Assembly: GCF_027595985.1 (NCBI RefSeq)
Contig: NC_073305.1
Coordinates: 117,522,114-117,586,113, forward strand
DNA from: Sorex araneus
Lineage: Eukaryota; Chordata; Mammalia; Eulipotyphla; Soricidae
Length of the DNA: 64,000 bases
Direction of reading: 5' to 3'
A model generated the notes under the pieces. It saw nothing but the letters and a program-made list of their open reading frames with translations. It was not told where the DNA came from and ran no database searches. Below, one piece after another: positions 2,047-55,787 of the stretch. The first letter of the stretch is position 1. Each line of letters starts with the position of its first letter. The translations under genes were made by a program, and so were the position numbers.

Positions 2047-3721
2047 TCTATGAACTATTCCCTTTACTTTGATAATGACCCAATTCAAGGTCTTTATGTT
2101 ACCACTTTGCTTCTTTGTCAAATATACTCCACACGCAAGTTGTCCCTCCACCCAAACATCTAAACCATATACCGTTAGAGGAAACAAATGTCTCTGAAAG
2201 AATAGTATTTGAAAGTCTTTAAATAAATGATTAAATAGTTGGACGAATTGGTTTGTATCCAAAATGTTCATGGCTTTTTGTCAGTTCACTTGCTTTTCCT
2301 ATTTTATTCCATTGCTGATGATTATATTGGGACCTTGGGATTTTGACCAATGGCATGCCTTTCTCCATCTTGTTTCCTAGAGTCCTAAATTGAGAATATT
2401 TTAACTATGATAAATACTCATATTTTTAAAATTCTAAGTTTATATTTCAAGAAAAGTTGCAGGAATTGTGTTAAAGGACAAGAGACTAAGAATATAATTA
2501 GTTTTAAATTAGGTCCCAAGCATGTTGGTCATTGCTTATTTTTATGGTTACGATATCTCTGTCTTATTCAATGTAGTGAAAATCCAATACCTTTAGGCAG
2601 TTGGCCCAAGTTTGATTTTTAGGCATTTTGATTTATAAATTGAATTCTTTGTAACCTTTACAGGATTCCCAACTCCATTATCATGTTATTACTTTTGTAA
2701 TGTGTTTTGAGCACTGCCAATGTGTTCAGAATTGAAAAGCATATTAAAGTGAGCGTATTCCCACAATGGTCTAAACATTTTAGCTGAACTTTTTATTTTT
2801 CCACCTCTGCACATTTTGGAATTGCTGCTTTATATTATTTTTCCCCCAAATAGACAGAAGTTCCTTTCAAAGTAAGTATTGTTTGAGAATTCTCATTTGC
2901 TTGTGTTGCTGAACTCAGTGACATGTTTTGTGGGATTTTAGCAGTGGTTTAAAGTGACAGCCATTTCATCCCATTATCAGGTTATACATAATGTTCTGCC
3001 CAATTAATTAATTCATTAACTTAATTAATTTAATCATCAAGTTGTCCTTATTTTTATCTAATATTTTTGTATTTAAAAAGATCATTTTTGCTTTCAAGTT
3101 TTTAAATTTCTTGTTGATCTGAGTCCATGTTTTACTCATGAATGTGTCTACCTGAATACATTATGACTTTCTGACAATTGAGGCCAGAAATGTGAATAAA
3201 TGTCTTTGTCTTTCAAGTGCTCCTCTTTTAACTTTCCTAATCATTGAAGATGATGCTCTAGTTGTTCATTTCCCAGGGAAGCATCCAAGAGTCACTTTAA
3301 GGTGATTATCTTTTTATCTTCAGGCTCACTGAATCATTGAATCCCTACTCTGCTTCCAGGCCTGTAAGACTATTATGCCTGAGATTTTGACTATATAATA
3401 ATAGATTCAAGATATCCGGGGTTTAGTTATAATTTGCATGTCATTCACTTAACTAAGAGACCCAGAATTTTACACTGAATTTTAGTTTTCATTTTGTCAT
3501 ATTAGGTTTGTCAAATTTGGGAAAATTCTTACTTAACTTTCACCTAAAACCATTTTAGAATGATTTTTAAAACCGGTGTATTGAAACTGATTATGGCACA
3601 TATTTATTTCCTTATTTTTCACTCCCAAGTCTCAACCTTATATCCAGGTGCCAATATATTTAAAAATAGCTCATTACACTATCAAATTGTAGAAGTGTGA
3701 GAAAGATAAAAGAATATTTTT
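2047..3721. other. AT-rich unique or unassigned DNA
   Basis: No coding sequence or recognised repeat. An (AATT)n-like low-complexity run lies at about 3,001-3,035. The T-rich character could reflect very old LINE relics, but nothing is diagnostic. Confidence 0.4.
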
Positions 3722-3882
3722 GGGAATGGAGCAATAGTACAGAGGGTAGAGTACTTGTCTTGCACACAGCTGACCAGATTCAATCCCTGGCACCTTTTAT
3801 ATTTTCTTGAATACTGCTAGGAGTGATCCATGAGTGCAGAGCCAGGAGTAGGACCTGAGCACCACTGGGTGTAGCCCGAAAA
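3722..3882 (+). mobile_element. SINE-A, degenerate copy
   Basis: Head GGAGCAATAGTACAGAGGGTAG with a degenerate B box (gattcaatccc), then the body GAGTGCAGAGCCAGGAGTA. The A tail is eroded. It is followed 27 bp later by an inverted SINE-A, which makes an inverted pair. Confidence 0.8.
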
Positions 3883-3909
3883 TAATTGTTAGAAGAGAGA
3901 ATATTTTTA

Positions 3910-4097
3910 TTTTTAAATTTTATTTATTTTTTGCTTTTTGGATTACACCCGGCACTGCACAGGGGTTACTCCTGGCTCTGCACTCAGGTATTACTCCTGG
4001 CGGTGCTCAGGGGATCTATATGGGATGCTGGGAATCGAACCCGGGTCGGCCGTGAGCAAGGCAAACGCCCTACCTGCTGTGCTATCGCTCTAACCCC
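3910..4097 (-). mobile_element. SINE-A with exact 16-bp TSD
   Basis: Well-preserved reverse copy with a complementary B box (ggaatcgaaccc) and head. It is flanked by the perfect duplication agagagaatattttta at 3,894-3,909 and 4,098-4,113. Confidence 0.93.
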
Positions 4098-4113
4098 AGA
4101 GAGAATATTTTTA

Positions 4114-5045
4114 GCCATTATTTGGCTACTTAAAATTGTGATGTTTATTTTTACATCTTCAATAAGAAGAAGTATCATTTTTCACTTTATGCATTGAACC
4201 ATGCTTGAATTTATAAGGTTATTCATTGACATAAACAAAAAGCAATTACTATTTTACAAATTGCACGTTTGGGATGAATGCTGGGTTAATTAATAGAGTT
4301 CTGACAGTTACAGTTTATTATCAGTTCACATACTTAGTTTTAAATGATGTTTAAATCTGTGATGTGGTATTTGCATAAATTTTAGCCATTTCTTCATACT
4401 TGTTGCATATTTTTAAAAAGGATGGAAGCGTGGGGTTATGGAAGCACAGATAAATATTTGAAGAACTATTGATGGAAACACAAATCTTAATATGTGACAT
4501 TACTGAAAATAAATAAAATTGAGGGGAAGGAAATCAACTTTGTATTCAAAATACTTATTCACTGATTGGAAACATTTATTAGTGATAAGTTTGCTTTTGA
4601 ACATTTTTTTGCAACAGAAGTATAATTCTAGCATCCGTAAAATGTTGCCAAAAAATTTAAAAAGAGATAAATGGAAAAAAGTCTAAAAAGGAAAGACTTG
4701 AAAAATTAATAACATTTTTTTTAAAAAAACATAAGGATTGCAAAACTATACCAGAGTATCATTGAACATATCCTGTATATTTGGCCCAAATACCATATAG
4801 TGTCTTTTGTAAGACAAAAATGCTCAAAGGCACACAAAACTTGGCCTTTTACCCTACTTATTACACACAAACACTGATATAACCTTTATTCTATCTGAAA
4901 GAAACTCACGTATCAGACTTGTTTAGAAATACTGAATTCATGATTCAAGGCTCAGGATACTGAGCATACTCAGGAACTTCTAGGAAATCTGCAATGTGTA
5001 TTTGGTGTTACATGGGAATAGATAAAATCTAATTGGTTGGAGTTT
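4114..5045. other. Unique AT-rich DNA
   Basis: No coding sequence, no recognised repeat and no RNA gene seen. Confidence 0.5.
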
Positions 5046-5230
5046 TAGTCTCTTCTTAGTCTGCTTGTGTATCCATAACAGAGTAGTACCTAAACGAAGT
5101 AGCCTAAACAACAGAAATTAATTTTTTCACATTTCTGGTGGCTAGGAATTCGAGGTCTAAATATTGCAACTAGACAAAGAATACATTGGTTAAGGTTTAT
5201 GCCTTCAGTGTGGCTGTGCCCTAACCATAT
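5046..5230 (-). mobile_element. MaLR-type LTR relic (3' end of LTR)
   Basis: On the minus strand this reads as the classic 3' part of MaLR (MLT1/MST-like) LTRs: the stretch around AACAACAGAAATTAATTT and the AGTCTGCTTGTGTATCCATAAC block correspond to the family's usual GTTTAAGCCACC..TTATGGCAGC..CTAAGACA end. Strongly diverged and old. The far boundary is uncertain and may extend to about 5,475. Confidence 0.6.
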
Positions 5231-5908
5231 TTCAAATCCTGGACCCCATGGTCTCTTAGCACTACAATGTGTGGGAGAGAGCCCTGAGCACTGTTTGGTA
5301 TTGATCACATAAAGAAGATATGGATAGAATTAATTATTTCTAAAATCTATGGGGAAGGATCTGTTTTATGCTTGAAGATAAGAAAGAGGAGACATGTCTT
5401 GGCTTATATATGTACCATGTTCATCTTTGCCTTCATCTTTACACAGTGACTTGCCTGCATGCTTGTCTATCTCCTTATTTCTTCTTTTTTAATTATGATG
5501 CAGTCATATAACCTGCATTTTAATTCAGCAACTCTTCAAGAACCTACTTTCAAATGAAGACCATAGTCTGAAGTAGTGAGGTTTAGTAATTCATCATATA
5601 CTATTGAAGGTGAGACTTGCACGTATAATGATTCTATCCATCTGGGAAGGAGACCATTAGAGTGGTGCTTGGGGAATCCTGTGTAGGAAGGAGATTTCAC
5701 ACAAATCAGAGACCACATTAATCCTGTTTTTAGGTTTATTCACCCAAAGTATATTTACCACCTACTGTTCCCAAGATTTGTGCAAGTGAGGTCTTAGTGT
5801 GATTACTGTAGAATTAACTCTATTCATTTGGTCTTTACAATACAGAATGGGATTTTGACTTTAAGTGAAAATTTCATATTAGCATGGTCAGACATCATAC
5901 ATTTAAAA
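5231..5908. other. Unassigned DNA between MaLR relic and RTE
   Basis: No gene seen. Part may belong to the same old LTR. An open frame of about 60 codons on the minus strand at 5,536-5,718 has no recognisable domain. Confidence 0.4.
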
Positions 5909-17231: not shown

Positions 17232-17705
17232 TATTTATTTATTTATTTATTTTATTGAATCACCATGTGGAAAATTACAAAGCTTTCAGGCTTAAGTCTC
17301 AGTTACATAATGCTCGAACACCCATCCCTTCACCAGTGCATATATTCCACCACCAAGAACCATGGTAAACCTCTACCCCCCCCCCCCGAGCCCCCGCTCC
17401 CAGTCCCCCACCCAGCCTGAGTACCTGATAAATTTCACTTTACTTTCTCTTTACTTTGATTACATACAAACAAAAAACCTCACTATTATTGTTTGGAGTC
17501 CCCCCGCCCGCCAGAGTCGGACCTGCTGGAAAGGAAGCATTTGATAATTTGTTTTCCATTGCTGAGAATGAAGAGATATGAGGTCATGTAGCCACAGTAG
17601 CGGCCTCGAGGTTCTAGATTTCTGTATTTTCGTATTTTAGTGACTAATTCCAGAGGCCTTTCTGCCAGAGGTTGCATCATTGCAAGCTCGTACCTCTCTG
17701 CTACT

Positions 17706-28384: not shown

Positions 28385-29230
28385 TAGAGGTGAAAGCTCC
28401 CGATTCTATATCACTATTCCTCTTGCTCCAGGAGAGGATTCTAGGTGAGCTAAATCCATAATGGTGGGGGCCGGAGTGATAACACAGGGGGTAGGGCGTT
28501 TGCCTTGCATGCAGCCGACCTAGGTTCGATCACCAGCATCCCATATGTTCCCCCAAGTACTGCTAGGAGTAATTCCTGAGTGCAAAGCTAGGAGCAACCC
28601 CTGAGCATGCTGGGTGTGACCTAAAAAGCAAAAATAAATAAATAAATAAAAAATAAATAAATCGATAATGGCAATCTTTTCCCCCTTCTAGAATAGTTTC
28701 TTACATTACTGCGATCTTCCTAGTTTATGTAGGGCTTCTAGTCAAGACTTGAGGCTATGATCTGTTTATGAGAGCTTTGTGTACCTTCTTGTATTCCTGA
28801 CACTTTTTCTAGGATTAGGATGGGTTAATGGCTTATTGGCATATAGTGATTTAGATGGCCAGCTTATTCTTCGTGTACATAGATCATAGATATGTGTGAC
28901 CTAAGTGTGCAGTATAGGAGAGGGAGAAAAATAACTGAGGCTGCGTTAGCTACCGCTGCTCTGAAATTAGGCCATGCCCCCTTTTGAGGCCACGCTCCCT
29001 GACGTAGAGGACACTTCCCCACCAGCCAATGGGCTGGACCCCAGGATTATCTGGGGAGGGGAGTGGTTGACTAGAATGGCGCGCATAGAGGCAGGCGGCC
29101 CAAAGACCCACCCTGGCCCTGGCAATCCCCCAGGCTGGGTGGAGCCAGCGTGAGAGTTCTTTCAGAGTGGGGGTGAAGAAGAGATCCTGATCTGGAATCG
29201 AAGTTACCTGGCGAAGGGGAGTGGTTGACT
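28385..29230 (-). promoter_or_regulatory. Older L1 5' UTR, split by a SINE, with monomer remnant
   Basis: Aligns by eye with the young L1 leader (ctgaggctgcgttagc and ggccatgccccctttt against the young ctgcggccgcgttagc and ggccacgccccctgag). The motif gagtggttgact occurs at 29,061-29,072 and 29,219-29,230, a period of 158 bp, which suggests a different monomer with its outer copy truncated at the element end. The leader is interrupted at 28,465-28,658 by SINE-A. Confidence 0.7.
28465..28658 (+). mobile_element. SINE-A inserted in older L1 5' UTR
   Basis: Head gggggccggagtgataacaca, B box ggttcgatcacc, full body and (taaa)n tail. The TSD aaatccataatgg (28,452-28,464) and aaatcgataatgg (28,659-28,671) has one mismatch. 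It is younger than the L1 it interrupts. Confidence 0.93.
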
Positions 29231-53443: not shown

Positions 53444-55218
53444 GAAGCTTTTATACATGTATATGTCAAACATATCTATTTTAATGTGTATATAAGCTTT
53501 GATATAACATCATAATAAGAAAACTGGTCTCAGAAGATGTGATTATCATTCATAATTACCACTTGTCATCCCGTTTATCTTCTATTTGCTCAAGCAGGCG
53601 GCAGTAACATCTCCATTCGTCTCTGTTGCGTGCTAGTGCAGCCCAATGATATCTGCTTGCTCCAGGCACACAAAGAGCCTCAAATCGTTCTATCAGGGAT
53701 TTGACAAAGAAATCTGACCATCTAGTTGGTGGGTGGCCACGAGGTCTTCTGACGTCCCTTGGAATCCAGTCGGTAACAGCTCTAGTCCATCGGTCATCTC
53801 TGAATCGCATTACATAACCAGTCCATCTGATTTTTGCTGCCTTCTCAAACAAGACAGTGTCCCTGATTCTTGACCGTTGACGGAGGTCGGAACTCCGGAT
53901 TCCTTCTCTTACCTGAGTGAGATGCGATACTCCTAGCATAGCTCTTTCGATTCCTCTTTGGGATACCCTAATAGCATTCTTGTCCTGTTTGTGTAGGACC
54001 CAGGTCTCTGAGGCATATGTTAGTGCAGGAAGAAAGGTGGAATTGAAAAGATGTGCCTGGAGTCAGAGGTTCTTCGTTCTCTTAACCACTTCTTCCATGC
54101 TCTTGAAGGCATTCCATGCTGTTCTTTTCCTCCTGCGCAGTTCTGGCACCAAGTCGTTCCTCATATTGATTTCTCGACCCAGGTACACATAGCTGCTGCA
54201 TTTAGAGATGTTCGTTCCACTGAGAGCAAATGGAGCTTCAGGGACCAGTTCAGTTTTCATGAACATCATCTTGTTGAGATTCAGCTGCAATCCTACCTTT
54301 CCACACTCATGGTCGAAGTCAGCCAGCATTTGTGCCACTTGGCTAATGTTTATGAGAACGATGTCATCAGCAAAGCGGAGGTGGTGTAATTGCTGACTGT
54401 CTATCTTCACTCCCTTTTCTTCCCATTCCAGTCATCGCATGATGTTCTCAACGGCGGCACTGAAGAGTTTCTGTGAAATGGTATCATCCCGCTGCACCCA
54501 TCTCTTTACATCAATGATCACTTCCTTGTAGAATGGTGAGATCCTGGTGGTGAATCTACAATACAGCTTGAGGAGGATTTTGATATACTGAGTTTGAATG
54601 CCCTGTTTGGCCAGGGCTTCGATGACCACCTCAGTCTCAACAGAATCAAAGGCCTTCTTTTTTTTTTAATATTGTTTTAATTTTTTATTTTTTAATTCAG
54701 TTTTTTTTAATTTATTTTATTGAATCACCATGTGAAAAGTTTCAAAGTACTCAGGCTTATGTCTCAGTTATATAATGTTCAAACACCCGTCCCTTCACCA
54801 GTGCCCATATTCCACCACCAAAAACCCCAGTATGCCTCCCACCCCCAACCCCACCCCCGCCTGGGTAACTGATAAATTTCACTCTTCTCTTTACCTTGAT
54901 TACATTCCATATTTCAACACAAAACTCACTATTGTTGTTGGAGTTTCAACACAGACTCACTATTTTTGTTGGAATTTATCCCCCAAGAAAACAGCCCTAT
55001 TGACAAGGAAATATTTGATATTGAGTTTTCTACTGATGAGAATGAAGAGATAAAAAGTCACTCAGCCACGGTAGCACGGTAGTGGCCGCCCGGTTTACAG
55101 TTTCTGTATTTTAGTAATTAAATCTGTATTTAGTAATTAATTTCTGTATTTTAGTAATTAAATCCAGGGAGATTAAAGTTGGAAATTGAATCATTTCCTT
55201 TCCTGGAGCAGCATGGAG

Positions 55219-55379
55219 CAAAAGCTTAGATCACAGTCTGGATACATGGTTGCAAGCACTCTCTGGAACCCCCAGTCTTATAGCTGCCTCTGGTTCCTGC
55301 TCGTTCAGCATTCAGGCGGCTGTGCAGAGGCATGGCCACCCGGGTCGAATCTCGGCCGGAGCCCGTGCTCCGGCCCTGG
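55219..55379 (-). repeat. 336-bp-period monomer, inner copy
   Basis: 161-bp segment repeated at +336 bp with few differences. GC-rich. Its sense strand contains a TATA-like ggcagctataagactgg and a self-complementary ccggagc..gctccgg motif. Promoter role inferred. Confidence 0.88.
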
Positions 55380-55554
55380 CCCGAGCCTGCCCAGGTGTCC
55401 CGGTTTCAAGTTCAAAGCACACATTTTTTTTTTCCTCGCCACAAAGTTCATACCAGCTCAAAGGACCCATAAAATGTCGGACACCACGCCTTCTCCCCCG
55501 GGAGGAAGGAGAGACCAAGGGAGAAGGATATTTCCTCTGTTAGCCGGCGTGAGA

Positions 55555-55715
55555 CAAAAGCTTAGTTCACAGTCCGCATACATGGTTGCAAGCACTCGCC
55601 AGAACCCCCAGTCTTATAGCTGCCTCTGGTTCCTGCTCGTTCGGCATTCACGCGGCTGTGCAGAGGCATGGACACCCGGGTCAAATCTCGGCCGGAGCCC
55701 GAGCTCCGGCCCAGG
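55555..55715 (-). repeat. 336-bp-period monomer, outer copy (truncated at insertion end)
   Basis: Aligns without gaps to 55,219-55,379. The sense 5' end is cut at the TSD, as expected for the outermost unit of a tandem 5' UTR array. Confidence 0.88.
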
Positions 55716-55787
55716 TCAAAGGCCTTCTTTAAGTTGATGAATGTTAGACAGAGCAGCATCTTGAACTCTCGCGAAACTTCAATGAAT

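Follow-up and report, generated by a model that had tools for sequence, protein, structure and literature searches.

Background

HAL1 elements are non-autonomous derivatives of L1 in which ORF1 has been kept. The VNTR composites (SVA, LAVA, PVA and FVA) are described as specific to hominoid primates (PMC4432496). For the mouse L1, passages on its monomeric promoters propose parallel starts in successive monomers (PMC9022269), and a 2026 catalogue of L1 chimeras suggests that the exchange of 5' UTRs is driven by chimeric insertions, with neither shrew nor Sorex occurring in its main text (PMC13174262). Sorex is likewise untreated in the passages on placental L1 of PMC1764860, and the shrew genome paper, in its parts on repeats, gives totals for two species, whose genomes are 17 % and 10 % unclassified (PMC11544316).

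An element on the minus strand of a 64,000-nucleotide stretch of the common shrew (Sorex araneus) genome, the whole of which is referred to as the window, is described here. On the evidence of sequence comparison, it is very probably a copy of a family of non-autonomous composite retrotransposons, in which promoter-like monomers of 336–341 bp are joined to an L1 3' UTR. No such composite family was found in the titles and abstracts of the literature searched, and it may be listed in Repbase or Dfam.

Structure and insertion site of the element

The features of the element are collected in Table 1. The element is read on the minus strand because the AATAAA signal and the A-rich tail are located at its low-coordinate end; both are also present in the majority sequence of the long copies. 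The first-pass annotation of the window had described an insertion bounded by an exact 15-bp target-site duplication (TSD) and an A tract, in which a tandem GC-rich array is joined directly to an L1 3' UTR, and this outline holds. The two copies of the TSD are identical and the A-rich tail can be read directly, two stretches of 161 bp that align at an offset of 336 are 93 % identical, and alignment with the L1 copies examined is confined to the L1 3' UTR, so that the element is without any part of ORF1 or ORF2. The junction, expected at about 55,180–55,220, was placed at approximately 55200–55190. The truncated unit, taken in the annotation to be the outer copy, is instead the inner one, which adjoins the 3' UTR with approximately 200 of its 336 bp; the outer unit is nearly whole and, by phase alignment, short of no more than some 20 nt at its start.

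Table 1. Features of the composite element and of a related L1 3' UTR, in window coordinates
Feature	Position	Strand	Basis or remark
Whole composite element	54661..55715	(-)	5' end at 55715; bounded by TSD; 38 further near-full-length copies, 87-90% identical
5' target-site duplication, AAAGAAGGCCTTTGA	55716..55730	(-)	Exact, 15 bp
3' target-site duplication	54646..54660	(-)	Exact, 15 bp
Outer promoter-like monomer, lacking ~20 nt of its 5' end	55399..55715	(-)	Repeat at 336-bp offset; phase by alignment
Inner monomer, truncated on its 3' side and fused to the L1 3' UTR	55196..55398	(-)	Repeat and alignment of older copies; boundaries by reading
A10 tract within the monomer; monomer-only copies of other loci stop at it or inside it	55424..55433	(-)	Direct reading; L065, L072, L104-L106
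Monomer / L1 3' UTR junction, with a short GG-AAT motif common to both sides	55190..55200	(-)	Alignment of older copies and genome matches
L1-derived 3' UTR, from ~20 nt past the ORF2-stop position to AATAAA	54701..55198	(-)	Colinear with window 17690-17238, L006 and L063
Altered GC-rich hairpin, the indel hot spot	55059..55093	(-)	Perfect 11-bp stem in L099
Triplicated AT-rich stretch of the 3' UTR beside the hairpin	55101..55162	(-)	Only in the window copy among 39 long copies
AATAAA polyadenylation signal	54716..54721	(-)	Direct reading
A-rich tail	54661..54708	(-)	Direct reading
3' UTR from an older L1 that shares its type with the source of the element's 3' module	17238..17690	(-)	Sequence comparison

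A TATA-like motif lies some 100 nt further downstream than the usual 5' ends. In 11 older aligned copies, the inner unit has CTTTA or a similar sequence in its place. Given this wrong distance and the lack of conservation, the motif is unlikely to position initiation, and it was rejected as a determinant of the start site. A frame-like stretch on the plus strand in the middle of the element was considered as a host-gene fragment in antisense and likewise rejected, as it aligns with the L1 3' UTR.

Two types of L1 3' UTR could be distinguished in the loci examined. The first is carried by L058, L059 and L060, which are 99 % identical; both ORFs are open in L058 and L060 (351 open codons in ORF1 and 1,286 in ORF2), ORF2 of L059 is interrupted, and only about 80 bp of this 3' UTR can be aligned with the element. 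The second type occurs in five other L1s, including that at window positions 28392–17238. The 3' module of the element is colinear with this second type from approximately 20 nt after the ORF2 stop through the tail, and the composites incorporate a segment of about 31 bp which is absent from the five second-type L1s. The L1 at 28392–17238 (minus strand) is an older copy, apparently split by a younger L1 (24722–19204) that is 96 % identical to L060. The GC-rich 5' UTRs of L058 and L060 also contain repeated units, unrelated to the monomer of the element.

The element interrupts what seems to be a gene for an RTE-type reverse transcriptase (window 53556–54665, minus strand), which resumes at 55731. 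The match of this gene to RVT_1 is weak (23.5 bits; Pfam cut-off 29.6), and the gene is perhaps RTE1_Sar, which is described from the common shrew in passages of PMC6542046 and is proposed to have been transferred from nematodes.

Copy number, target sites and age of the family

The whole element was searched against its own genome (2.4 Gb in 65 contigs) and 40 candidates were scored. These best 40 comprise the window copy, 38 near-full-length copies (Table 1) and one copy of the 5' half only (L047; 94 % identity), with the window copy and the 38 making up the 39 long copies, a set that thus represents the highest-scoring matches to the window copy. A 39-bp junction pattern, allowing at most three mismatches, matched the genome 1,680 times and its reversed control not once, and a pattern for the 3' module gave 13,282 matches (control 0), a count which may include some L1 3' ends. 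TSDs of at least 10 bp occur at the right places in 35 of the 39 long copies, compared with 3, 3 and 1 of 39 in shifted-flank controls, where the 5' flank of one copy is paired with the 3' flank of another. Twenty other junction copies were drawn from the first listed exact junction matches on contig C1, minus L033, which was already in the long set; TSDs were found in twelve (controls 1, 0 and 0 of 20) and not found in eight. The target sites are mostly A-rich, with at least four A among the first five bases in 31/43 listed TSDs, a list which omits L078, L080, L082, L084, L086, L091, L094 and L097 of the 20 and L017, L024, L027, L028, L032, L033, L040 and L041 of the 39.

The long copies differ from their own majority sequence by 3.2 % on average (2.1 % outside CpG), and 11 older composites, aligned from loci picked mainly by an older monomer variant, are 82–88 % identical to this young majority sequence. 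Apart from single-base differences, the main joint is identical in all 11 of the older composites. The lineage is therefore long-lived, and we infer from the aligned sequences that the main joint arose once and was then inherited. One of the older copies derives from L077, which contains two neighbouring composites in inverted orientation that share the same monomer variant.

Among the readings put forward in the first-pass annotation were a non-autonomous L1 satellite family with a logic comparable to that of SVA, a one-off event at this locus, and a host gene exon as the monomer, and a genome search for the shared monomer/3' UTR junction had been recommended. This search returned many copies with the same junction, with TSDs of their own and belonging to several age groups, which supports the family. 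Copy number, shared joint and separate TSDs all argue against a one-off chimera or a host gene exon; nothing spoke in favour of either after the genome search, and both were rejected as having practically no chance of being correct.

A second class of composites (class B) is represented by five loci (L098–L102), with units of approximately 341 bp that are fused to the 3' UTR at a point different from that of the main class (class A). The class B joint is formed about 30 nt into the next unit, which is fused to the hairpin of the 3' UTR. Its junction pattern gave 45 genome matches (control 0), copies with hairpin deletions being missed, and one class B copy (L098) includes more than four monomer units, with flanks that can be read by eye as a TSD. 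The five loci share one joint and are 1.1–2.8 % apart, and the closest and median pairs among the 39 class A copies are 2.2 % and 3.6 % apart outside CpG. In view of its smaller distances class B looks younger, although the class A copies compared had been selected for their similarity to the window copy. A third joint is present in L103.

An indel hot spot at the 3' UTR hairpin

In its complete form, as seen in L099, the hairpin closes a loop of 4 nt with its perfect stem and folds at -29.7 kcal/mol (z -3.85). Relative to a reference sequence in which the hairpin is complete, indels of at least 3 nt affect it in 15/20 other copies and 25/39 long copies, and the two nearest 50-nt bins on either side show indels in only 0–2 copies. 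Other variable places are a G-rich tract at 801–900 (8 and 6 of the 20 copies, but 2 and 0 of the 39) and the first bins, in which 5' ends and truncation are also counted. Many of the hairpin forms differ from copy to copy, with one short form, identified by eye, occurring in five of the 39 long copies. Furthermore, 18 nt of monomer sequence are found at the hairpin of L026 (by eye), and the class B joint is situated at the hairpin edge.

Instability of the DNA at some time after insertion could have produced the hairpin deletions, for which it would account, but it fits the monomer insert of L026 less well. Template switching in reverse transcription would explain the indels, the L026 insert and the class B joint alike. 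The reverse transcriptase would slip or switch template at the hairpin and so give rise to differing deletions, and the class B joint, too, may be the outcome of such an event.

5' ends and the putative life cycle

The 5' ends of 35/39 long copies, from which the interval was derived, fall at a phase of -8 to +36 relative to the unit start, with nine at -2 or -1. Only four of the 39 reach further upstream, although longer copies would score equally well; far-downstream starts score lower, and the downstream limit of the interval is therefore partly a product of selection. Eight of the 20 other copies have their 5' end within this interval of either unit, against 2.7 expected with equal phases (p 0.003) and 3.6 with a linear null over positions -20 to 480 (p 0.018). 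Two wider intervals hold 10 and 11 of the 20 (p 0.007 and 0.03, respectively, under the linear null), and a scan without a fixed interval gave P = 0.07. The 5' ends thus concentrate at one monomer phase, with moderate statistical support. This pattern would reflect initiation at the start of each unit, in the manner proposed for the mouse L1 monomers.

The element is most likely copied by the L1 machinery. RNA polymerase II would start at the beginning of a monomer, the resulting RNA would be polyadenylated at the L1-derived AATAAA, and L1 ORF2p would copy it in trans through target-primed reverse transcription. With start sites near one phase per monomer, RNA from an inner monomer would give a shorter copy.

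Origin of the composite

Monomers upstream of an intact L1 ORF1 had been suggested as a means of recognising the parent L1. No monomer was found in 15 L1 ORF1 loci, about ten of which have a recognisable 5' UTR and which represent a small part of the L1s of the genome, and a short-word comparison of the monomer with nine L1 5' ends gave at best a match of 31 nt (E 0.017). Both results count against an origin by internal deletion from an L1 subfamily, extinct or unsampled, that had the monomer array as its 5' UTR, the deletion having extended from the last monomer to just past the ORF2 stop. Such an origin is conceivable, if rather doubtful: no more than about 20 nt separate the ORF2 stop from the beginning of the 3' module, several mammals have L1 5' UTRs made of monomers according to passages of PMC9022269, and L063 has a monomer ahead of ORF2 sequence. 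The latter locus holds a single insertion (2620–5750) with its own TSD, read by eye, in which one monomer is joined to the 3' part of ORF2. However, among the 40 scored places the full span of this joint is found in L063 alone, with one other place crossing it by 14 nt. As no second scored place fully spans the joint, L063 was rejected as a parental L1 and is taken as a chimera. L066, considered as an L1 carrying monomers within its 3' UTR, was also rejected, as reading by eye showed an ordinary insertion flanked by a TSD of its own.

Neither a parental L1 nor a source locus of the monomer was found in the genome searches made. It is quite possible, if short of probable, that the element was assembled as SVA was, with an L1 3' UTR placed downstream of a tandemly duplicated promoter of host or other origin and the fused transcript becoming mobile. 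The monomers are unlike all nine L1 5' ends compared, which agrees with such an assembly, as does the existence of monomer-only insertions. Five loci carry monomers that lack the L1 part and stop within or at the internal A tract, namely L065 (TSD by eye), L072 (end by alignment only) and L104–L106, and this tract may have acted as the priming site for these insertions. The assembly is opposed by the lack of a source locus and by the scored monomer matches, 40/40 of which have a second, partial unit next to them, as composites do (39 nearly whole, one of 100 bp; the L1 part after the second unit was checked within the 39 long copies among these matches). It also finds no backing in Rfam, where no family reaches its cut-off: the one match is to an unrelated sRNA (13 bits; cut-off 60), and no SINE head derived from tRNA, 7SL or 5S RNA was found in this search. 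A satellite cluster could conceivably be the source of the monomers. Mid-monomer matches in the genome are uneven by strand (645 forward and 421 reverse), an imbalance that hints at a tandem or duplicated cluster.

The proposal that the element derives from a spliced L1 RNA of the SpIRE kind, with a donor in the 5' UTR joined to an acceptor near the ORF2 stop, is highly improbable. The main junction, read by eye, is without clean GT-AG logic, and the spliced L1 transcript considered in the first-pass annotation thus finds no clear support there. A deletion in L068 is flanked by donor-like CAG/GTATGA and acceptor-like CCAG motifs (by eye), so that RNAs of the element may at times be spliced, but the three matches to its joint are all on contig C2 within 140 kb and therefore probably represent one event. 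L068 and the two further places (C2, 8.0–8.2 Mb) contain this splice-like deletion between two monomers, probably through segmental duplication.

Comparison with known elements

It may tentatively be suggested that the shrew elements constitute an undescribed class of mammalian composites, in which a monomer array is placed on an L1 3' UTR and the hairpin causes the reverse transcriptase to jump in most insertions, scarring the copies and founding subfamilies such as class B. An independently formed composite in a second mammal, present in hundreds of copies from several age groups, would indicate that such fusions arise repeatedly and that a promoter unit plus an L1 3' UTR are their minimal needs. 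As a hot spot for indels, the hairpin would constitute a natural germ-line record of the L1 reverse transcriptase at a stable RNA structure.

The shrew element is distinguished from autonomous L1 by the absence of ORF1 and ORF2. It is a non-autonomous L1 derivative, as is HAL1, but has no ORF1 and indeed no ORF at all. With the mouse L1 promoters (A, Tf and Gf) it shares tandem promoter units in variable number at the 5' end, a likeness of organisation, and it differs from these monomeric L1s in being without ORF1 and ORF2. As described in passages of PMC4432496, SVA, LAVA, PVA and FVA are similarly composite, without an ORF, with variable GC-rich tandem units and L1-type insertion, and LAVA also incorporates an L1 fragment in its 3' part. 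Unlike SVA and LAVA, the shrew element has neither a CT hexamer nor an Alu-like part, its long copies begin in a monomer, and its units are 336–341 bp in length and located at the 5' end, as opposed to VNTR units of 30–50 bp. Furthermore, its 3' end is an L1 3' UTR, where SVA has a SINE-R, and an L1-derived 3' part, as in LAVA, is the one module in common. The absence of internal L1 sequence is shared with the SpIREs, as these are presented in parts of PMC5860796, but the main junction of the shrew element does not follow splice logic cleanly and the family has copies of several ages. In the chimeric L1 insertions treated in sections of PMC13174262, L1 is likewise joined to another RNA at insertion, and L063 resembles these, whereas in the shrew family it is the fusion itself that has multiplied.
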